DNA of 34,334 nt. It comes from Chloroflexota bacterium. Lineage in GTDB: Bacteria; Chloroflexota; Dehalococcoidia; Dehalococcoidales; RBG-16-60-22. A program made the position numbers and the translations under genes. This document shows, piece by piece, positions 8,066 to 26,681 of the stretch. The notes beneath the pieces are model-generated. The model ran no database searches. It saw nothing but the letters and a program-made list of their open reading frames with translations, and had not been told where the DNA came from. The stretch is from the NCBI GenBank assembly GCA_018829775.1, contig JAHJTL010000034.1, positions 1 to 34,334 of the forward strand. Direction: 5' to 3'. Positions within the stretch are counted from its first letter, which is position 1. The number at the start of each line of letters is the position of its first letter.

Positions 8066-8340
8066 GTGAGGTCGTGCACCTGCCCTCGACCCTGCCCAAT
8101 AGCTTGCTTGAGCCAGCCAGCTCCAGCCAGGCAACCCTGCGGCACCCGGAAAATACTATTTACCGCTGCTTCCTCTCGGACCTGACGGGGTTCATAGCCT
8201 TCCGCCGCGCAAGACCCAGCCTTCAACACCGCTTGGCCAAAGTAGTCCCACCAGACAAGAGCCTCAAACCGGAATTAAACCCTGCTGTAGCGGATTGCAG
8301 GTTCAGGGCACCGCTAGCTCCCCGTCTAGCACGACCTCAC
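8066..8340 (-). ncRNA. ffs: Signal recognition particle RNA, large bacterial type
   Basis: The RNA scaffold of the signal recognition particle, which binds Ffh and targets nascent membrane proteins. Read on the minus strand, it has the large (Bacillus-like) layout, about 275 nt. Terminal strands GTGAGGTCGTGC (8340 to 8329) and GCACGACCTCAC (8077 to 8066) pair perfectly. The Alu-domain signature GCGGTGCCCT...CAATCCGCTA follows the 5' end. The helix 8 Ffh-binding signature GTCAGGTCCGAGAGGAAGC lies near 8168-8186 with a GAGA tetraloop, and the matching GGGTGCCGCAGGGTTGCCTGG closes the 3' half. A consensus promoter sits right before the 5' end. Identified by recall of the family sequence; a covariance-model search was not possible here. 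Confidence 0.95.
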
Positions 8341-17544: not shown

Positions 17545-17889
17545 TTAGTGGATTCTGAGCACCAGGTCGGCCTGGCCCCAGAGTCGGTCAAGCTGGTAGA
17601 ATTCCCGCTCCGATGTGGAGAATATGTGCACGATTACGTCGCCGTAGTCCAGCAGAAGCCAGCCTGAGTCTACCGTGCCTTCGTGGTGGATGGGAAGGAC
17701 CCCGTCCTTTTTCAGGCTGTGTTCCACGTCTTCAAAAATAGCCCTTATCTGCCGTTCGCTCTCTCCGGTGCAGATAACAAAGTAATCGGCAAAGCTGCAT
17801 ACCTTGCGGGTATCGAGCAGCACGATATCACCGGCCTGCTTGTCACCGGCCACATCCACTGCCCTTCGGGCTACTTCGATTCCTTCCAG
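17545..17889 (-). CDS. rsfS: Ribosomal silencing factor RsfS
   Basis: RsfS binds ribosomal protein uL14 on the large subunit and blocks subunit joining when nutrients are scarce. The family core is clear: AGDIVLLDTRKVCSFADYFVICTGESERQIRAI, then DSGWLLLDYGDVIVHIFSTSEREFYQLDRLW. Starting at GTG 17859 (104 residues) would remove most of the N-terminal helix that precedes GDIV in this family. Ten codons further up, CTG 17889 restores it (LEGIEVARRAV) and has GGGGAGG 8 nt upstream, so I extend the gene there; ATT 17892 is another possibility. This non-standard start is inference. An extended -10, TGCTATAAT, lies at 17922-17930 on the same strand. Confidence 0.85.
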   Translation of the reverse strand: MEGIEVARRAVDVAGDKQAGDIVLLDTRKVCSFADYFVICTGESERQIRAIFEDVEHSLKKDGVLPIHHEGTVDSGWLLLDYGDVIVHIFSTSEREFYQLDRLWGQADLVLRIH

Positions 17890-17957: not shown

Positions 17958-17986
17958 TTGACAAAGCCTTTCGGGTGTGCTATGTT
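17958..17986 (+). promoter_or_regulatory. Promoter of the aromatic operon
   Basis: Perfect TTGACA at 17958-17963, a 17-nt spacer, and TATGTT at 17981-17986 preceded by TG at 17978-17979 (extended -10). The predicted start is near A17993, giving a leader of about 187 nt up to the terminator. Confidence 0.88.
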
Positions 17987-18020
17987 TGACATAAATAAAA
18001 GCGAAAAAATTTTGGTCGAG

Positions 18021-18110
18021 ATGAATAAGCACAAGTTTTACGCCTATTATTATTTTTATTACTTTTTCTGGCGCTCAAGCGCTGGGGAGGGCCTTGTTTG
18101 TATGAGCTAA
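18021..18110 (+). CDS. Aromatic-rich leader peptide of the aro operon attenuator
   Basis: A 29-codon frame from ATG 18021 to TAA 18108-18110, not similar to any protein I know but of unmistakable type. Residues 6-17 read FYAYYYFYYFFW: six Tyr, four Phe and one Trp in twelve codons, using both Phe and both Tyr codons. The ribosome site is weak (GGTCGAG at 18014-18020). In classical attenuators such as those of pheA and trp, such runs make the ribosome stall when the charged tRNA is scarce. Here all three aromatic amino acids are sampled, matching an operon that supplies all three. The aromatic codons end 10 nt before the antiterminator strand, and the stop codon lies just beyond it. Confidence 0.93.
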   Translation: MNKHKFYAYYYFYYFFWRSSAGEGLVCMS

Positions 18111-18167
18111 ACACAGCCAAAAGCTAAAGAAGATAAGAAATAAAGCAATCAGAAGAGCCCTCCCCGG
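18071..18167 (+). promoter_or_regulatory. Antiterminator and competing hairpins of the aro attenuator
   Basis: Bases 18082-18092 (CTGGGGAGGGC) pair with 18157-18167 (GCCCTCCCCGG) over 11 positions, one of them G-U. The second strand includes the 5' arm of the terminator, so the two structures exclude each other. A small hairpin GCGC-TCAA-GCGC at 18071-18082 directly follows the Trp codon and could act as the pause or protector stem. A further stem, 18090-18099 with 18109-18118, overlaps the antiterminator strand and spans the leader stop codon. A ribosome stalled on the aromatic codons leaves 18082-18092 free; one at the stop codon would sit on or against it. Confidence 0.85.
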
Positions 18168-18179
18168 AAGGGCTTTTTT
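18153..18179 (+). terminator. Intrinsic terminator of the aro attenuator
   Basis: AGCCCT (18156-18161) pairs with AGGGCT (18169-18174) around a 7-nt loop, extended by a G-U and A-T pairs at the base, and runs into six T residues (18174-18179). It lies 35 nt before the aroF start codon, after the leader peptide stop. Confidence 0.92.
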
Positions 18180-18214
18180 ATTTGCCCGTCATTGACAAAC
18201 TGAGGAGAAGGAAG

Positions 18215-19294
18215 ATGATAATCATGAAATCGGAAGCTAGTAAAGAGGAAATCGCCCACGTGGTGAAGGAGATTAAAAAATTTGGCCTTAAGGCCGATGT
18301 CTCGCAGGGGGAGTTCCGGACGGTAATCGGCCTGGTCGGCGATGAGAGAAAGGTGGACTTTTCCCACTTTGCCACCCTTCCCGGTGTGAAGGAGGCTATC
18401 CCGGTGGAATCGCCATACAAGCTTATCAGCCGGGAGTACGGCAAGCAATTTGATGAAGGGATAGACCGTCGGCCGATACAGGTGGGTAACGTGGCCATCG
18501 GTGGCGATGCTCTGGTAATTATTGCCGGGCCGTGCACCATTGAAAGCCGGTCGCAGCTCTTCCGCATCGCCGAGGAGGTGAAGAAAGCCGGCGCTCATAT
18601 ACTGCGGGGTGGCATATTCAAGCCCAGGAGTTCCGTCCATTCTTTCCAGGGACTGGGGGCCAACGGCCATGATGAAGCGGAGGAAGCGTTGCGGTGGTTG
18701 CATGAGGCCGGACAGCGCTTTGAGATGCCAGTGGTAACGGAAGTAAGGGGGGAGGCACAGATTGACCTGGTGGCCAGCTACGCTGATATAATACAGATTG
18801 GTGCCCGCAATATGTACAGCCAGGACCTGCTTGCCAGCGTGGCCAGAGCCGGGAAACCGGTCCTGTTCAAGCGCCACTTCGGTGCCGGCGTTGATGAGTT
18901 TCTGTCTTTCGCCGAATACATGGCGGCGGAGGGCAACAAGGATATTATTCTGTGTGAGCGCGGCATATTGCCCGTGGGAAAGGGAAAAAACTACACCCGC
19001 TATACCTTTGACCTCTCGGCGATTCCGGCAATTCAGAAGGAGACCTACCTGCCGGTGGTTGCCGACCCCAGCCATGCCACCGGGCGGCGCGACCTTATTT
19101 TCAATATGAGCTGCGCGGCAGTTGCCGCCGGGGCGAGCGGCCTGATGATAGAGACACACTATGACCCGTCGGAGGCGCTGGTTGACGGTATGCAGATGAT
19201 AACGCCGGATGAGTTGAAAGAGGTTATCGGCGCCTGCCAGAAAATCCACGAACTGGTTGCCCCCAGGCACGAAGTAAAGGCGGTTAGTGGATGA
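18215..19294 (+). CDS. aroF: 3-deoxy-7-phosphoheptulonate (DAHP) synthase, type I-beta with N-terminal regulatory domain
   Basis: Condenses phosphoenolpyruvate and erythrose-4-phosphate to DAHP, the first step of the shikimate pathway. Of 359 residues, about 1-75 form a ferredoxin-like (ACT-like) regulatory domain (KEEIAHVVKEIKKFGLKADVSQGEFRTVIGLVG); in the Thermotoga enzyme of this type it gates the active site in response to Tyr and Phe. The barrel shows VIIAGPCTIES, LRGGIFKPRSS (PEP and E4P binding), QIGARNM, PVLFKRHFGAG, ILCERGI and VVADPSHATGRR (metal ligands). I start at ATG 18215, with GAGGAG at 18202-18207; a TTG at 18182 would lie against the terminator T-run. The enzyme thus seems controlled both by its own domain and by the attenuator. 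aroB overlaps its end by 4 nt. Confidence 0.96.
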   Translation: MIIMKSEASKEEIAHVVKEIKKFGLKADVSQGEFRTVIGLVGDERKVDFSHFATLPGVKEAIPVESPYKLISREYGKQFDEGIDRRPIQVGNVAIGGDALVIIAGPCTIESRSQLFRIAEEVKKAGAHILRGGIFKPRSSVHSFQGLGANGHDEAEEALRWLHEAGQRFEMPVVTEVRGEAQIDLVASYADIIQIGARNMYSQDLLASVARAGKPVLFKRHFGAGVDEFLSFAEYMAAEGNKDIILCERGILPVGKGKNYTRYTFDLSAIPAIQKETYLPVVADPSHATGRRDLIFNMSCAAVAAGASGLMIETHYDPSEALVDGMQMITPDELKEVIGACQKIHELVAPRHEVKAVSG

Positions 19295-20376
19295 GAGAGA
19301 TTAGCGTAGCGCTGGGCAGTAAAAGCTACCCGGTATTTATCGGGTCTGGACTGCTGTCTCAAACGGGCCGCTATCTGAAGGGACGCGGATTTGCCGACCG
19401 GCTGGTGGTTATCACTGACTCCACCGTGAACAGACTGTATGGTCGCACACTGAGCCTGGCTCTGGAAGATGATGGGTTCGGGGTCAGCACCCTTGAGTTG
19501 CCCCCCGGTGAAGAGCAGAAGTCGCTGGAAAACGCTGGCCTGCTATACGAGCAACTGACCGCGGTTCGTGCCGAGAGGACGACGCCAATTCTGGCGCTGG
19601 GAGGAGGCGTAATCGGTGACCTGGCGGGGTTTGTGGCGGCCACCTATCAGAGGGGGGTGCCGCTGGTGCAGCTGCCGACCACGCTGCTTGCCCAGGTAGA
19701 CAGCAGTGTTGGCGGGAAGGTGGCGGTGGACCACGGTCAATTGAAGAACATGATAGGTGCCTTCTACCAGCCGGAAATGGTCATCACCGATACCAGTACC
19801 TTGAAATCTCTGCCTGATGAAGAACTGGTCAATGGGCTGGCCGAGGTTATTAAAAGCGCGACCATACGGGATGGTCGGTTCTTTTCCTTTCTGGAGGAGA
19901 ATATGGAAAAGATAAAATCACTTGATGAGGATATTCTGGAGGAGACTGTATATCAGTCGGTGAAAATCAAAGCGGAGGTGGTGGCGGAGGACGAGTTGGA
20001 CATGGGCTTGAGGCATATTTTGAATTACGGCCATACCATCGGACATGCGGTTGAATCGGTCTCCGATTTCAAAATAAAGCACGGCAAAGCGGTGGCCATC
20101 GGAATGGTGGCAGCTGCCCGAATCTCCAATAAGCGCGGAATGCTTGGAGATAACGAAGTGAGAAGACTACTGGGATTAATAGAGCAGGCCGGCCTGCCCA
20201 CGAAGATTCCCGACCTCGGGGTTGAGGAAATAATACAGGCGATGCAGCATGACAAGAAAGTGCGTGAGGGAAAAGCCAGGTTCGTACTGCTGAAATCAAT
20301 CGGAAATGCGGTGGTTGCCGATGACGTTTCTCCAAATTTAGTCGAAGAGGTATTAACTCAGAATGACACGACCTAA
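19291..20376 (+). CDS. aroB: 3-dehydroquinate synthase
   Basis: Converts DAHP to 3-dehydroquinate, with NAD and a divalent metal, the second step of the pathway. The 361 residues show ELPPGEEQKSLENA, the NAD-binding ALGGGVIGDLAGFVAATYQRGVPLVQLPTTLLAQVDSSVGGKVAVDHGQ region, the metal-binding Glu in NGLAEVIKSA, and two His-bearing segments around ILNYGHTIGHAVE. All are canonical. ATG 19291 overlaps the aroF stop as ATGA, and the end overlaps aroD by 14 nt, so expression is coupled to its neighbours. Confidence 0.97.
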   Translation: MREISVALGSKSYPVFIGSGLLSQTGRYLKGRGFADRLVVITDSTVNRLYGRTLSLALEDDGFGVSTLELPPGEEQKSLENAGLLYEQLTAVRAERTTPILALGGGVIGDLAGFVAATYQRGVPLVQLPTTLLAQVDSSVGGKVAVDHGQLKNMIGAFYQPEMVITDTSTLKSLPDEELVNGLAEVIKSATIRDGRFFSFLEENMEKIKSLDEDILEETVYQSVKIKAEVVAEDELDMGLRHILNYGHTIGHAVESVSDFKIKHGKAVAIGMVAAARISNKRGMLGDNEVRRLLGLIEQAGLPTKIPDLGVEEIIQAMQHDKKVREGKARFVLLKSIGNAVVADDVSPNLVEEVLTQNDTT

Positions 20377-21019
20377 AATCTGCGCCTCCATAGTGAATAG
20401 TGACCTTGAAGCTATCAAACGTGTTGAGCCGCTGGTTGATTTATACGAGATGCGAATAGACCTGATTGGCCCCGAATGGAAGGAGTTCGCCGGGCAGCTT
20501 TCGAAACCCTGGATTGCCTGCAATCGGAAACGGGACGAAGGGGGAATCTGGCAGGGTAGTGAGGAAGAAAGGCTCGCCGAGTTGCTCCGCGCTCTGAAAC
20601 TGGGTGCGGGGATAATCGATATTGAGCTCAGCACGGAAAACCTCGCTGATGTTGTGACACGAATTAAAGAAAAGGCAAAATGCCTGATTTCCTGTCACGA
20701 TACGGAAGAAACGCCTTCGATTGCTGTGATGAAGGAGCTGGTGCAGAAGCAGTTGGCTGCCGGTGCCGATATCTGCAAGGTGGTTACAACCGCCCGGAAA
20801 TTCGAGGACAATGTGAGCACCCTGCAGCTAATCAGGGAATTTCCTGAAGAAAGAATTATCTCGTTTGCCATGGGGCCGCTTGGCTCTGTGAGTCGACTTC
20901 TCTGCCCACTGGTGGGCGGTGAGTTCATCTACGCTTCCATAGAACCGGGTGGAGAGGCGGCGTCGGGGCAGATTACGGCGGGCGACCTGCGAAAAATTTA
21001 CGAAATGGTGAAAGGATGA
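20363..21019 (+). CDS. aroD: 3-dehydroquinate dehydratase, type I
   Basis: Dehydrates 3-dehydroquinate to 3-dehydroshikimate through a Schiff base. The 218-residue protein belongs to the type I (AroD, aldolase-like) class, not type II: EMRID at residues 29-33 binds the substrate, His112 in ISCHDTEETPS is the general acid/base, and Lys139 in ICKVVTTA is the Schiff-base lysine. SFAMGPLGSVSRLLCPLVGG and the C-terminal GQITAGDLRKI are typical. It overlaps aroB by 14 nt and aroE by 4 nt. The length is slightly shorter than the E. coli enzyme (252) but is common in this class. Confidence 0.95.
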   Translation: MTRPKICASIVNSDLEAIKRVEPLVDLYEMRIDLIGPEWKEFAGQLSKPWIACNRKRDEGGIWQGSEEERLAELLRALKLGAGIIDIELSTENLADVVTRIKEKAKCLISCHDTEETPSIAVMKELVQKQLAAGADICKVVTTARKFEDNVSTLQLIREFPEERIISFAMGPLGSVSRLLCPLVGGEFIYASIEPGGEAASGQITAGDLRKIYEMVKG

Positions 21020-21879
21020 GCTCCATAACCGGAAAAACAAGGGTCTGCGGGATAATCGGCGACCCCATAGAGCACAGCATGTCGCCGGTGATGCATAACG
21101 CCGCCTTCGAAGCGCTTGGCCTAGACTATGCCTACCTTCCATTTCGCGTGCGGCGGGAGGAGCTGCCGGAGGCGATAGCCGGCATCAGGGCACTCAACCT
21201 CGTTGGTCTGAACGTTACCCTACCGCATAAGGTGGACGTAATCCCGCTACTGGATAGACTGGACGCGATGGCGGAGAGAATGGGGGCGGTGAACACCATT
21301 GTCAATGAAAATGGAGTGCTCGCCGGCTACAATACCGATGCCCCCGGCTTTCTTCAGGCACTGCTGGTGAAAGGTATTGAGCCCGATGGTAAGAAAATCG
21401 CCATACTGGGCTCCGGCGGTGCCGCCAAAGGAATCTCCTTTATCCTCGCCGAGGCAGGCGCCAGTCTGGTCATCCTGAACCGCACTCTTCCCAAAGCAGA
21501 AGAGCTGGCATCCCAGATTGCGCAATACTATCATAAAAAACTGGAAGCGATGACATTAAGCGAGGAGAACATGGCTAAGGCGCTTGGTGGGGCCGATGTT
21601 CTGGTCAATACCACCAGCGTGGGCATGGTTCCCGGCGTTGACCAGACCCCCGTGCCGGCAAGACTGCTCAAATCAGATATGACCGTTTTCGATATCGTGT
21701 ATAACCCCCTGGAAACAAGGCTGCTCAGGGAGGCGAAGGCAGCCGGTGCCCGGACCATAGACGGGCTGGATATGCTCGTCTGGCAGGGCGTGCTGGCCTT
21801 TGAGAAATTTACCGGCCGGAAAGCACCGCTTGAAATCATGAAACAGGCAGCGGCAAAGGCTTTATCACATGAAAAGTAA
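21016..21879 (+). CDS. aroE: Shikimate dehydrogenase
   Basis: Reduces 3-dehydroshikimate to shikimate with NADPH. The 287 residues start with GIIGDPIEHSMSPVMHNAAF (the shikimate-binding SxS motif), then VTLPHKVDVIPLLD (catalytic Lys), GAVNTIV, GYNTDAPGF (catalytic Asp), the dinucleotide-binding ILGSGGAAKGISFILAEAGASLVILNRTLPKAEEL, and VNTTSVGM. The basic residue after NRT is the usual NADP determinant in AroE; here the sequence reads NRTLPKAEEL. It overlaps aroD by 4 nt and aroK by 11 nt. Confidence 0.96.
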   Translation: MSSITGKTRVCGIIGDPIEHSMSPVMHNAAFEALGLDYAYLPFRVRREELPEAIAGIRALNLVGLNVTLPHKVDVIPLLDRLDAMAERMGAVNTIVNENGVLAGYNTDAPGFLQALLVKGIEPDGKKIAILGSGGAAKGISFILAEAGASLVILNRTLPKAEELASQIAQYYHKKLEAMTLSEENMAKALGGADVLVNTTSVGMVPGVDQTPVPARLLKSDMTVFDIVYNPLETRLLREAKAAGARTIDGLDMLVWQGVLAFEKFTGRKAPLEIMKQAAAKALSHEK

Positions 21880-22396
21880 CATTGCCCTCATCGGTTTCAT
21901 GGGAACGGGAAAGACGGCGGTGGGTAGATTGCTGGCCGAAAAGCTGGGCAGGGAATTTATTGAACTGGATGCACTCATTGAAAAGAGGGCGGAAAAGTCC
22001 ATCCCCGAAATCTTTCAGCAGGATGGGGAAATCGCTTTCCGTGAGCGCGAGATTGAGGCGACCAGAGAGGTGGCGGAAAAGAAAAACGCGGTGATTGCCT
22101 GCGGCGGCGGCGTTGTCCTGAACCAGATAAACATTGACCGGCTCAGGAAAAACAGCGTGATTGTATATCTGACGGCATCGCCCGAGGTGATTTTGAAGAG
22201 GACATTATCTGATAAAGATGAAAGGCCACTGCTGGTAGCAGAGAATAAGGCTTCAAAGATTGAAGTGCTCTTGAAATTCAGAAAACCGTTCTATGAACGC
22301 GCGGCTGATATAACGGTGGATACTTCCGAACTGAAAGTGACCGAGGTGGTCGAGCAGATACTAGCCGGATTAAGTGAGTATGAAAGTCACCGTTGA
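21869..22396 (+). CDS. aroK: Shikimate kinase
   Basis: Phosphorylates shikimate at the 3-hydroxyl with ATP. The 175-residue P-loop kinase has Walker A GFMGTGKTAVGR at residues 9-20, the shikimate-binding FIELDALIEKRA, EIAFREREIEA (substrate Arg), the IACGGGVVLN loop and a lid Arg in DERPLL. ATG 21869 lies within the last codons of aroE (11-nt overlap), and its own end overlaps aroA by 17 nt if ATG 22380 is used. Normal length and all catalytic residues present. Confidence 0.95.
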   Translation: MKSNIALIGFMGTGKTAVGRLLAEKLGREFIELDALIEKRAEKSIPEIFQQDGEIAFREREIEATREVAEKKNAVIACGGGVVLNQINIDRLRKNSVIVYLTASPEVILKRTLSDKDERPLLVAENKASKIEVLLKFRKPFYERAADITVDTSELKVTEVVEQILAGLSEYESHR

Positions 22397-23642
22397 AAAA
22401 AGTAACATCAAAGGTAAAGTGATTGCTCCACCGTCCAAGAGCTACACGATAAGAGGCCTGATGTGTGCGGCGCTGGCTCACGGGCAGAGCCAGATATTGA
22501 ACCCTTTATACGCGGACGATACGGACGCTGCCGCCAGGGTGCTGGACGATATCGGTGTGCGCGTGGAGCGGACGGAAGACCTCTGGCGAATCGATGGCAG
22601 CGAGCTTCGCCAGCCGGAGGCAGACCTCTATTGCGGCGATTCGGCAGCGACGCTGCGGTTCATGACGGCCATCTGCTCGATAGTCCCGGGGAGGTGTCGT
22701 TTGACGGCGGGCGCTTCGCTGGCCAAGAGGCCGGTCGAATCGCTGGTGAAGGCGCTGCAGCGATTGGGTGTGGACTGCTCGTCAAATGGCGGCGTGGCAC
22801 CGGTGGTGGTAAACGGGGGGAGGTTAAAGGGTGGGGAGACCGAGCTGCCCGGCGATGTCAGCTCACAGTTCGTCTCAGCGCTGCTGCTGGTCTCGCCGCT
22901 TGCCGAGGAAGGGATACACATCAGGCTGACCACGCCTCTGGAATCAAAGCCCTACGTTGAGATGACCCTCGACTGCATGGAGAAATTCGGCGTAAAGGTG
23001 GAATTTTCCAAAAAGATGGACGATTTCTATACGGTAAAACAAACATATCAACCGGCAAGATATGAAGTGGAAGGGGACTGGTCGTCGGCTTCTTACTTCC
23101 TGGCGCTGGGCGCTCTTTCAAACGGAGTGGAGATCGAAAATTTGAATCCGGAAAGCCTGCAGAGCGACAGGGCTATGCTGGAATTCCTGAGCCAGATGGG
23201 CGCGGATGTGAATGTATCGCCAAACGCAATCAGGGTAAAAGGTTCAAAGCTGAAAGCGCTGCATGTTGATTTGTCCGACAGCATCGACCTTCTGCCCACG
23301 CTGGCTGTTCTGGCGGCGGTGGCCGAGGGAACGAGCGAGCTGGAGGGCATCGATAGGGCGAGGATAAAGGAATCGAACCGCGTTTCCGCCGTCCGGGAGG
23401 GGCTGGAAAGGATGGAGGTGAAGGTTGCCGAGGAAAAGGACCGAATGCTCATCACGGGCTCAAACCTGAAGAGCGCGGTCATTGACAGCCACGATGACCA
23501 CCGTATCGCCATGGCCTTCAGCATCCTGGGCACACTTGCGGGGAACACCATCATAAATAATGCGGAGTGCGTTAAGAAGACATTTCCGCAATTCTGGGAT
23601 ATACTAAGAAACATTGGGGGAAGACTGGAGATAAATGGATAA
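22380..23642 (+). CDS. aroA: 3-phosphoshikimate 1-carboxyvinyltransferase (EPSP synthase)
   Basis: Joins phosphoenolpyruvate to shikimate-3-phosphate. The 420-residue protein has the two inside-out domains: APPSKSYTIRGLMCAALA (PEP- and S3P-binding Lys and Ser), YCGDSAATLRFM, ASLAKRPVESLVKAL, PGDVSSQFVSALLL, and in the second domain DLSDSIDLLPTLAVLAAVAEG (catalytic Asp), IKESNRVSAVREGLERM and DSHDDHRIAMAF. YCGDSAATLRFM has S-A where many enzymes have N-A-G-T, a difference in the PEP-binding loop worth noting. The start may be GTG 22374 or ATG 22380; I chose ATG. It overlaps aroK by 17 nt and aroC by 8 nt. Confidence 0.95.
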   Translation: MKVTVEKSNIKGKVIAPPSKSYTIRGLMCAALAHGQSQILNPLYADDTDAAARVLDDIGVRVERTEDLWRIDGSELRQPEADLYCGDSAATLRFMTAICSIVPGRCRLTAGASLAKRPVESLVKALQRLGVDCSSNGGVAPVVVNGGRLKGGETELPGDVSSQFVSALLLVSPLAEEGIHIRLTTPLESKPYVEMTLDCMEKFGVKVEFSKKMDDFYTVKQTYQPARYEVEGDWSSASYFLALGALSNGVEIENLNPESLQSDRAMLEFLSQMGADVNVSPNAIRVKGSKLKALHVDLSDSIDLLPTLAVLAAVAEGTSELEGIDRARIKESNRVSAVREGLERMEVKVAEEKDRMLITGSNLKSAVIDSHDDHRIAMAFSILGTLAGNTIINNAECVKKTFPQFWDILRNIGGRLEING

Positions 23643-24723
23643 CACTCTGGGCAAGATTTTCACCCTCACCAGCTTCGGTGAGAGCCACGGCGACTGCATG
23701 GGAGTGGTGGTTGACGGCTGTCCTGCCGGTCTCCCCATCGGCGAAGCGGATATCCAGCAGGAGGTGGAGAGGCGGCGACCCGGCGCCACCGGCACCACGG
23801 AGCGGTGGGAGCCGGACAAAGTGGAAATCATCTCCGGCGTCTATGACGGACGTACCACCGGCGCGCCTGTCTGCATGCTCACCTGGAACAGGGATATCGA
23901 TTCCGGAGTTTACAGGAAAAATCGATTTGCCCTGCGTCCCGGCCATGCCGATTATACCGCCTTTGTAAAGTACGGAGGATTTAACGATTTCCGCGGCGGG
24001 GGCCGGTTTTCGGGGAGGATAACTTTAGCCTACGTCATGGCTGGAGCAATCGCCAGGAAGCTAATCGGTCGCCTAGGCATCGATGTCTTTGCCCATACCG
24101 TTGACATTGGCGGTATCAAAGCTCCCGCGCAGGCATTGACCGAAATTAAAGAAAGAGCCAGAGAAAACCCGCTGTGGTGCGCTGACCGGGAAGCTGCTGA
24201 GAAGATGACGCGCTTAATCGAACAGACAAAGCGGGAGAAAGACAGCCTGGGCGGGACTATCGAGGGCGTTGCCCTCAACGTGCCGGCGGGACTGGGCGAG
24301 CCGGTCTTCAATAATTTTGATGGTGAGCTGGCTAAAGCCCTGTTCGCCATTCCGGCGGTCAAAGGGGTGGAGTACGGTGCCGGCTTTGCCGTCGCGGGCA
24401 TGAAAGGTTCGGAAAATAATGACCTTTATGACATCAAGGATGGAAAAATCGTTACCGGGACCAACAACGCTGGCGGGGTGCTGGGTGGCATCAGCACCGG
24501 TATGCCGGTAATCGTCAGGGTTGCTGTCAAGCCGACCGCCTCCATCGCCAGAAGTCAGGAAACGGTGGATATCCAGAAGATGGCCAAGACCAGCCTCACG
24601 GTAATGGGTCGACATGATACCTGTATCGTCCCTAGGGCGGTGCCGGCGGTGGAGGCGATGATGGCGGTGACCATATGCGACTTTGTCCTGCAGGCAGGAC
24701 TTGTGCCGAGGGTGTTGTCATGA
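23635..24723 (+). CDS. aroC: Chorismate synthase
   Basis: Removes phosphate from EPSP to give chorismate, using reduced FMN without net redox change. The 362 residues show the signature [22 protein letters not shown] at the N-terminus, [72 protein letters not shown] and [17 protein letters not shown] near the C-terminus. FMN and substrate residues look intact. No dedicated flavin reductase is evident nearby. It overlaps aroA by 8 nt and pheA by 4 nt (ATGA). Confidence 0.97.
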
Positions 24724-25811
24724 ACCTTGAAGAGTTAAGAAAGCAGATTGATGATGTTGATGCCAGAATCATCGAGCTCATCGGTGAGCGGATACACATT
24801 GCCGAGGAGATAGGCAGGGGCAAGCGGGCAAAGGGCAGCTCAATTGAGGACCGGGAGCGAGAGAAGAAGGTCCTGGAGAATGTAAAACGCCTCGCTCAGG
24901 AGAAGGATATCGACATCAGCACGGAAGACCTGGGGAATATCTATGAGCGCATCATCTCTGCCTGTAAGAATAAAGAGGGCGTTACGGTTGCCTTTCAGGG
25001 TGAGGTGGGCGCCTACAGCGAGGAAGCCGCCTTTCAAATCTTCGGCACGTCGATAGAAATCCGGCCCCGTGAGACGCTGGAAGAGGTCTTCAAGTCGATG
25101 GAGGAGGAAGGGGTGCAATTCGGCGTGATACCGGTGGAAAACTCGCTGGAAGGGAGCATCAGCCGTTCTTATGACCTCATGCTTGAATCCCCTCTCCGCG
25201 TATGCGGCGAGACTGAAGTGAGGGTAATCCACTGCCTTATCGCCAGCCCTGATGCCAATCTGGATACGGTGAAGAAGGTCTACTCTCATCCTCAGGCGCT
25301 GGGACAGTGCCGCAGTTTTCTGAAACACCTGAATGCCGTCCTGATTCCCAGCTATGACACCGCGGGAAGCGTCAAGATGATCAAGGAACAGGGATTAACG
25401 GACAGCGCCGCCATCGCCAGTGCCCGGGCCGCGGAAATATATGGCATGAAGGTCATCGCCAGAGAGATAGAGGACACCCCTAACAATTTCACCCGATTCT
25501 TCACCCTGGCCAGAAAAGACTCACCACCAAGCGGGAATGACAAGACCTCGATTGTTTTTTCGACGAAGGACCGACCCGGTGCGCTCCATGAAGTTCTCGG
25601 TGAGCTATCCCGCCACAATATAAACCTGAGCAAGCTGGAATCCAGACCAACGCGGCAAAAGCCCTGGCAGTACAACTTCTATCTCGATTTCGAAGGTCAC
25701 CGTGAGGACGATGCCGCCCGCGAAGCACTTCAGAATGTAGAGAAACTATCGATTTTTCTCAAGGTACTGGGTTCGTATCCGAAGGCAAAAAGACGGCCGG
25801 TAGGTGAATAG
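24720..25811 (+). CDS. pheA: Bifunctional chorismate mutase / prephenate dehydratase with ACT domain
   Basis: Makes prephenate from chorismate and then phenylpyruvate, the committed step to phenylalanine. Of 363 residues, about 1-80 are an AroQ-type chorismate mutase (ELRKQIDDVDARIIELIGER...KRAKG), about 88-270 are prephenate dehydratase (VAFQGEVGAYSEEAA, VIPVENSLEGSI, and the catalytic NNFTRFF), and about 280-355 are an ACT domain with RPGALHEVL and NLSKLESRP, the two segments that bind phenylalanine in this family. Feedback inhibition by Phe is therefore expected. Start ATG 24720 overlaps the aroC stop; tyrA begins at the base after its stop. Confidence 0.96.
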   Translation: MNLEELRKQIDDVDARIIELIGERIHIAEEIGRGKRAKGSSIEDREREKKVLENVKRLAQEKDIDISTEDLGNIYERIISACKNKEGVTVAFQGEVGAYSEEAAFQIFGTSIEIRPRETLEEVFKSMEEEGVQFGVIPVENSLEGSISRSYDLMLESPLRVCGETEVRVIHCLIASPDANLDTVKKVYSHPQALGQCRSFLKHLNAVLIPSYDTAGSVKMIKEQGLTDSAAIASARAAEIYGMKVIAREIEDTPNNFTRFFTLARKDSPPSGNDKTSIVFSTKDRPGALHEVLGELSRHNINLSKLESRPTRQKPWQYNFYLDFEGHREDDAAREALQNVEKLSIFLKVLGSYPKAKRRPVGE

Positions 25812-26681
25812 GTGAAGGTTGCCATAATTGGCGGTTCGGGAAAAATGGGACGATGGTTCGCCCGTCATTTACTGGAAGAGGGCAACGAGGTGGTAATCAG
25901 CGGCCGGACTGAAAGCAAAGTCATGGAAGCCAGACAGGAGCTTGGCGTTGCTGCTGTCTCTAATGTTGAGGCGGTCAAAGATGCTGAAGTCGTAGTGCTC
26001 TCGGTGCCGATAGATACTTTCGAGGACATTGTCGTCGAGCTTGCCCCCCATATCCAGCCGGAACAGGCGGTGGTTGATGTCACCTCCGTAAAAGTGATGC
26101 CCGTAGCCGCTATGCACCGGCACCTGAAGACCAAGCTGGTACTGGGGACACACCCGCTCTTTGGGCCGGGGGCACAGGGAGTTGCCGGACAGAACTTTGT
26201 GCTGACTCCGACCAGCAACGAGGAAAGGGCGCTGGCGGATAAGGTCAGAAGTTATCTGGAAACAAGAAGTGCCAGAGTCAGCCTCATGACGCCCGAAGAG
26301 CACGACGATAAAATGGCCGTTACTCTCGGGCTTTCTCATTTCATTGCCATTGTGGCTGCCGATACGCTTCTCAGTTCGAATAAAAGTACACAGCCCACAA
26401 CGCTCGGCGGCATTACCTACAAAGTATTGCTGACCCTGGTGGAAAGCGTTATCTCGGAGAATCCGGAGCTTTATGCCTCCATCCAGATGAATTTACCCGG
26501 TGTTCCGGACGTTGAGACGCTATTCCAGGGGAAGGTGGCAGCGTGGGCGGAAATGGTGAAGAGTAAGGACAGGGACGCCTTTATCCGGCAAATGAAAACG
26601 CTGAAAAGCCGACTGGAAAAGGATAACCCCGATTTCGGTAAGGCCTACGAAAATATGTACCGGCTCGCCTCGGGATTATAA
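25812..26681 (+). CDS. tyrA: Prephenate dehydrogenase family protein (TyrA)
   Basis: Oxidatively decarboxylates prephenate to 4-hydroxyphenylpyruvate, the tyrosine branch. The 289 residues begin with a Rossmann fold (IIGGSGKMGRWFARHLLEEGNEVVISGR), followed by VLSVPIDTF, DVTSVK, the substrate-site GTHPLFGPG and TPEEHDDKMAVTLGLSHF, all characteristic of TyrA. SGR after the second strand suggests NADP, not NAD, as cofactor (inference). There is no fused chorismate mutase and no ACT domain, so prephenate must come from PheA. It starts at GTG 25812, directly after the pheA stop, and ends the operon. Confidence 0.92.
   Translation: MKVAIIGGSGKMGRWFARHLLEEGNEVVISGRTESKVMEARQELGVAAVSNVEAVKDAEVVVLSVPIDTFEDIVVELAPHIQPEQAVVDVTSVKVMPVAAMHRHLKTKLVLGTHPLFGPGAQGVAGQNFVLTPTSNEERALADKVRSYLETRSARVSLMTPEEHDDKMAVTLGLSHFIAIVAADTLLSSNKSTQPTTLGGITYKVLLTLVESVISENPELYASIQMNLPGVPDVETLFQGKVAAWAEMVKSKDRDAFIRQMKTLKSRLEKDNPDFGKAYENMYRLASGL

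Follow-up and report, generated by a model that had tools for sequence, protein, structure and literature searches.

A predicted ribosome-mediated attenuator with an aromatic leader peptide at a Dehalococcoidia shikimate operon, and its recoded relatives across the class

The question raised by this locus is what a short reading frame crowded with aromatic codons does immediately in front of the genes of aromatic amino acid synthesis in a Chloroflexota bacterium. The window analysed here is the whole 34,334-nucleotide stretch of contig JAHJTL010000034.1, and its first-pass annotation had proposed a leader-peptide attenuator controlling a complete shikimate operon. Family models bear out that operon and its gene order, all on the forward strand: aroF (18215-19294), which encodes a DAHP synthase with an N-terminal ferredoxin-like regulatory domain, aroB (19291-20376), aroD (20363-21019), aroE (21016-21879), aroK (21869-22396), aroA (22374-23642), aroC (23635-24723), pheA (24720-25811), for chorismate mutase/prephenate dehydratase, and tyrA (25812-26681), for prephenate dehydrogenase, with aroD and aroK scoring slightly under the curated cut-offs. 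Because AroF carries the regulatory domain, feedback inhibition is likely to be layered with control at the leader. From its anatomy, conservation, covariation, recurrence and match between codons and genes, the leader is very probably a ribosome-mediated transcription attenuator belonging to a homologous Dehalococcoidia family whose codons are fitted to the operon that follows.

Direct reading of the sequence reproduced the coordinates previously assigned to the promoter, the 29-codon frame, the antiterminator and the terminator, all of which lie on the forward strand. The promoter (17958-17986) is of the sigma-70 type, with a TTGACA -35 element (17958-17963), a 17-nt spacer and an extended (TG) -10 element TATGTT (17981-17986), and transcription is predicted to start near 17993. 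The leader ORF (18021-18110) follows a weak ribosome-binding site and runs for 29 codons from an ATG at 18021 to a stop at 18108-18110, with the predicted peptide MNKHKFYAYYYFYYFFWRSSAGEGLVCMS; codons 6-17 (18036-18071), which read FYAYYYFYYFFW, specify four Phe, six Tyr and one Trp, so that 11 of the 12 are aromatic, the remaining one being A. Segment 2, the antiterminator strand (18082-18092), can form an uninterrupted helix of 11 pairs, including one G-U, with segment 3 (18157-18167), which consists of the 5' arm and loop of an intrinsic terminator (18153-18179; stem 3:4 formed by 18153-18161 and 18169-18177, U run at 18174-18179); 35 nt separate this terminator from the aroF ATG at 18215. 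The small GCGC hairpin described earlier (18071-18074/18079-18082) is present and extends beyond that description into a protector hairpin 1:2 (18062-18091; 18062-18074 with 18079-18091) of 13 pairs, G-U included, at -16.1 kcal/mol. Its 5' arm is made of the last control codons, from the last base of a Tyr codon through Phe-Phe-Trp. The pairing of these codons with segment 2 gives the leader the full classical set of 1:2, 2:3 and 3:4. Elsewhere in the window, a divergent ORF at 17545-17859 on the reverse strand, RsfS-like (ribosome silencing factor) by eye, has its own promoter-like site at 17949-17922, and a bacterial large SRP RNA lies at 8072-8334 on the reverse strand (Rfam RF01854, 200.8 bits).

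Folding calculations place the competing states of the window at nearly equal energies, -27.5 for 1:2 with 3:4 and -24.4 for a short 1:2 with 2:3. A ribosome on the Trp codon would leave free the RNA from 18084 onward, and this RNA folds into the antiterminator; RNA beginning at 18105 or 18124, as left free by a ribosome at the stop codon, folds into the terminator. In the full leader without a ribosome 2:3 is part of the thermodynamic minimum, so termination would need either a ribosome or co-transcriptional kinetics. Judged by textbook ribosome footprints, a ribosome stalled on the last Trp codon (18069) masks segment 1 and not segment 2, which begins at 18082; in relatives the median distance from the last aromatic codon to the core of segment 2 is 21 nt. 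The stop codon lies 16 nt past segment 2 in the window and mostly 9-13 nt past it in relatives. Segment 2 may thus be only partly covered by a ribosome parked at the window's stop, in which case the off state would depend on 1:2.

The operation predicted from these elements is as follows. When charged tRNA-Phe or tRNA-Tyr, or here also tRNA-Trp, is scarce, the ribosome would stall within 18036-18071 and cover the 5' arm of 1:2, leaving segment 2 free to join segment 3 as it emerges; 2:3 would then block the terminator, and the shikimate-Phe-Tyr operon would be transcribed. When the aromatic tRNAs are charged, the ribosome would pass over segment 2 to the stop codon, or 1:2 would re-form behind it, or both, and 3:4 would form and stop transcription near 18179.

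The first-pass annotation had suggested that conserved aromatic codons and covarying arms in the aroF upstream regions of related genomes would support such a mechanism, and both are present. A scan for AroF yielded 80 loci, to which whole-genome searches added more, giving 83 distinct Dehalococcoidia upstream regions that could be read. A leader ORF with aromatic codons, a terminator and a GGGAGG strand are common to nearly all of them, and the small hairpin occurs in most. Windows of 12 codons with at least seven aromatic codons occur in 62% of the native regions and in 0% of base-shuffled ones, and windows with at least five occur in 96% and 4.7%, respectively. A TTGACA element and a -10 element, mostly with TG, precede nearly all of the leaders (mean score 19.7, compared to 14.1 after shuffling). 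At about 15 loci the leader ATG lies 6-10 nt past the -10 box, which suggests that the leader peptide is translated there from a leaderless transcript; at L057, L066, L073, L077, L079, L082, L084, L014, L054, L104 and L030 the gap is 6-9 nt.

Covariation was computed on an alignment of 52 aroF leaders. In the antiterminator 91.5% of cells are paired, the covariation score is 0.307, compared to 0.183 for shuffled data and about 0.14 or less when the strands are slid against each other, and 37 cells carry double changes against a shuffled mean of 11. Columns 124-125, in the terminator loop, pair with segment 2 as UA, GC, CG and UG, and because these bases are unpaired in the terminator, only the antiterminator pairing explains their covariation with segment 2. 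With registers fixed, pairing at these loop positions is more frequent in native than in cross-genome combinations (84% vs 48% at position -2), figures for which the registers were picked on native pairing; the fairer comparison of best against best gives means of 23.3 for native and 18.1 for cross-genome combinations. The core of the protector hairpin also covaries (0.242 vs 0.166, with 15 double changes vs 4.5), and a stable form of this hairpin is absent or weak in some subclades. The leader combines a short, apparently translated ORF with many codons for the operon's end products, a terminator with a U run, a covarying antiterminator and a protector 1:2.

The further proposal that one leader integrates all three aromatic amino acids agrees with the codons in the window, but across relatives the leaders appear to sense mainly Tyr and Phe. 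The 83 leaders contain on average 4.2 Tyr, 2.6 Phe and 1.0 Trp codons; every one of them has Tyr, 82 have Phe and 67 have Trp, with a Trp codon before segment 2 in 61. The 16 leaders that have no Trp include that of a genus which is probably Dehalococcoides. In the genome from which the window comes, the trp branch appears to be under its own control, by a T-box leader before trpE (G000:C73, L126:2055-2276, reverse strand) that has the T-box motif GGGTGGCACCGCGG and a UGG (Trp) specifier and scores 54.7 against an Rfam gathering score of 93 (E 2.5e-11).

In the order, 127 of 151 genomes match R1, a covariance model built from the aroF leader, and about half of these 127 do so at two or more places. 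In the window's own genome there are exactly two sites, the aroF leader and a second attenuator (C72:4193-4320, reverse strand, locus L182) with the leader MERTKFVFTGRTGVRLGGSEYV, which lies before an AMP-ligase gene and one for a Liv-type ABC permease; no aromatic leader was found upstream of pheS in this genome. The commonest second-site operon, as assigned by Pfam, is AMP-ligase - LivH - LivM - binding protein - LivF - PaaK-like ligase, the last having PaaK as its best NCBIfam match at a score below the curated cut-off. Other second sites precede a hisC-type aminotransferase and pheST (both above cut-off), genes for a CoA ligase, IorA and IorB in that order (IorA and IorB above cut-off), a TRAP transporter with a CoA ligase, and an ABC transporter whose TrpX-like assignment is below the curated cut-off. 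R1 sites are also found at shikimate operons that start with aroB or an aldolase rather than aroF, and two sites (L228 and L227) precede genes for a family III CoA transferase, an MBL-fold protein and proteins of the 2-hydroxyacyl-CoA dehydratase/benzoyl-CoA reductase type, operons that perhaps serve aryl-lactate metabolism and that also contain an FAD oxidase with an Fe-S partner. Copies without an evident aromatic link occur at L200 (molybdopterin oxidoreductase) and L221 (MoxR-type ATPase). Two genera, probably Dehalococcoides and Dehalogenimonas, possess the version before aroF as well as that before the CoA ligase.

Such second sites might instead be unrelated local attenuators that have converged on a GC hairpin and a GGGAGG terminator, and it is true that the terminator motif is common in the clade and that some R1 matches are weak, with E-values near 1e-4. 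Convergence is nevertheless unlikely, because the strong matches span the full length of the model, TTT-ACC codons and hairpin included (E-values of 2e-18 at G035:C2 and 6.9e-8 at the second site of the window's own genome), because an aromatic ORF lies in phase at nearly every one of the roughly 50 second sites read, and because, of 301 genomes sampled evenly across the phylum, 20 had matches, all in the class, and none outside it.

The codon content of the leaders follows the gene of the operon, with Phe abundant before the PaaK-like operon and pheST and Tyr abundant before hisC. Per 12-residue core, the means are 2.1 Phe, 4.1 Tyr and 0.8 Trp for the aroF class, 2.7 Phe and 0.6 Tyr for the CoA-ligase/PaaK class, 1.9 Phe and 5.0 Tyr for the hisC class, 4.0 Phe and 1.5 Tyr for the pheST class, and 6.0 Tyr and 0.5 Phe for the class with a CoA ligase and IorAB, numbers being small outside the aroF and CoA-ligase/PaaK classes. 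This correspondence is consistent with the sensing of starvation, and it bears on an explanation of another kind, in which the aromatic peptide and a ligand in the ribosome tunnel would arrest translation, as in TnaC, and codon starvation would play no part. In the CoA-ligase and hisC classes an F-x-F-T sequence is fixed beside the hairpin, which favours such an arrest, but in the CoA-ligase class the codon between the two fixed Phe codons varies among V, I, A, T, M, S and L, as expected under selection for Phe decoding at set places. The order, ratio and run length of F, Y and W also vary freely among relatives, and so do the synonymous codons (TAT 173/TAC 125, TTT 115/TTC 37), which together make nascent-peptide arrest very improbable. 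No more room is left for translational control, in which segment 3 (CCCUCC) would hide the ribosome-binding site of aroF, the T run being incidental: the GGAGG-type sites before aroF are indeed complementary to segment 3, but a U run directly follows the terminator hairpin at nearly all loci, and the distance from terminator to aroF differs widely among them, so that we give this explanation hardly any weight.

Under transcription attenuation, the RNA chassis would have been kept while its codons were re-fitted, to Phe for pheST and the CoA-ligase/Liv-ABC/PaaK-like operon, to Tyr and Phe for the hisC-type aminotransferase, and to Tyr for the operon with a CoA ligase and IorAB. If the attenuators switch on under starvation, the second-site operons should supply Phe or Tyr; a CoA ligase, IorAB and a transaminase form a route, known from methanogens, by which aryl acids are converted anaerobically into aromatic amino acids. 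The attenuator copies would together constitute a regulon for de novo synthesis of aromatic amino acids and, putatively, for aryl acid salvage. That the regulon is class-wide, with one chassis copied and its leader recoded (Phe, Tyr or mixed) so as to link shikimate synthesis with PheRS and with aryl acid uptake and activation by CoA ligases, the Liv-type ABC transporter, IorAB and a transaminase, is a reading that we favour with some reserve.

Beyond this family, the second DAHP synthase of the window's own genome (G000:C61) has upstream of it a 53-codon frame containing aromatic codons and no T run, and the upstream regions of a DAHP synthase of about 45% identity in other Chloroflexota genomes are mostly without a leader. 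Exceptions outside the class are L128 (G116), L138 (G249), L133 and L137, in which short aromatic ORFs (for example MARLDSTCAYYFYRFFWYYAAV... and MGHFFYFYDSPA) precede the DAHP synthase gene; the terminators of L128 and L138 differ from the Dehalococcoidia type, and these ORFs may possibly belong to independent attenuators.

The class of mechanism is classical and known. The pheA, pheST and trp leaders of E. coli likewise have an ORF with control codons, competing 1:2, 2:3 and 3:4 pairings and a U-run terminator before the operon, and a pheST version exists both in E. coli and in the Dehalococcoidia family. Unlike the E. coli leaders, the leader in the window has mixed Tyr, Phe and Trp codons, precedes the genes of an entire shikimate pathway, DAHP synthase through tyrA, includes the terminator loop in its 2:3 helix and shares one chassis with many operons. 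Mixed sensing is not new in principle, since the ilvGMEDA, ilvB and thr leaders of E. coli are multivalent and sense more than one amino acid (branched-chain, or Thr and Ile, rather than aromatic). T-boxes also control amino acid operons through tRNA charging, but they bind tRNA directly and have no leader ORF; no T-box covariance match was obtained at the aroF leader, where no Rfam family attains its threshold, Phe_leader (RF01859) giving 26.8 bits in the window against a gathering score of 55 (E 0.019). The aroF leader of Corynebacterium glutamicum (cg1129) has a predicted Phe-Tyr-Phe peptide before a DAHP synthase gene (PMC4046766), but its aromatic run is much shorter, it belongs to another phylum, and it is not described there as part of a family spanning several operons. 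The ilvB and leuA leaders of Streptomyces resemble attenuators, yet their codon mutations do not behave classically (PMC1262725), which counts against the attenuator reading of the window.

Leader-peptide attenuation of amino acid operons has been described mainly in Proteobacteria, Actinobacteria and some Firmicutes (PMC2965389, PMC9413887), and a full-text literature search, with most subscription journals outside its scope, found no description of such an attenuator in Chloroflexota. What is new is the phylum, the mixed aromatic leader dominating a whole shikimate operon, and one chassis recoded across a regulon. Attenuation would then be pervasive in another phylum, in mostly uncultured organisms, and the reuse of a chassis with changed codons would provide a natural experiment in the spread of attenuators and in shifts of their specificity. 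Since the amino acid that limits an operon can be read from the codons of its leader, the leaders can also predict gene functions, and they suggest that aryl acids are turned into Phe or Tyr by the CoA-ligase/ABC/IorAB operons, whose annotation is poor. Two genera that carry these attenuators, probably Dehalococcoides and Dehalogenimonas, are grown for bioremediation.
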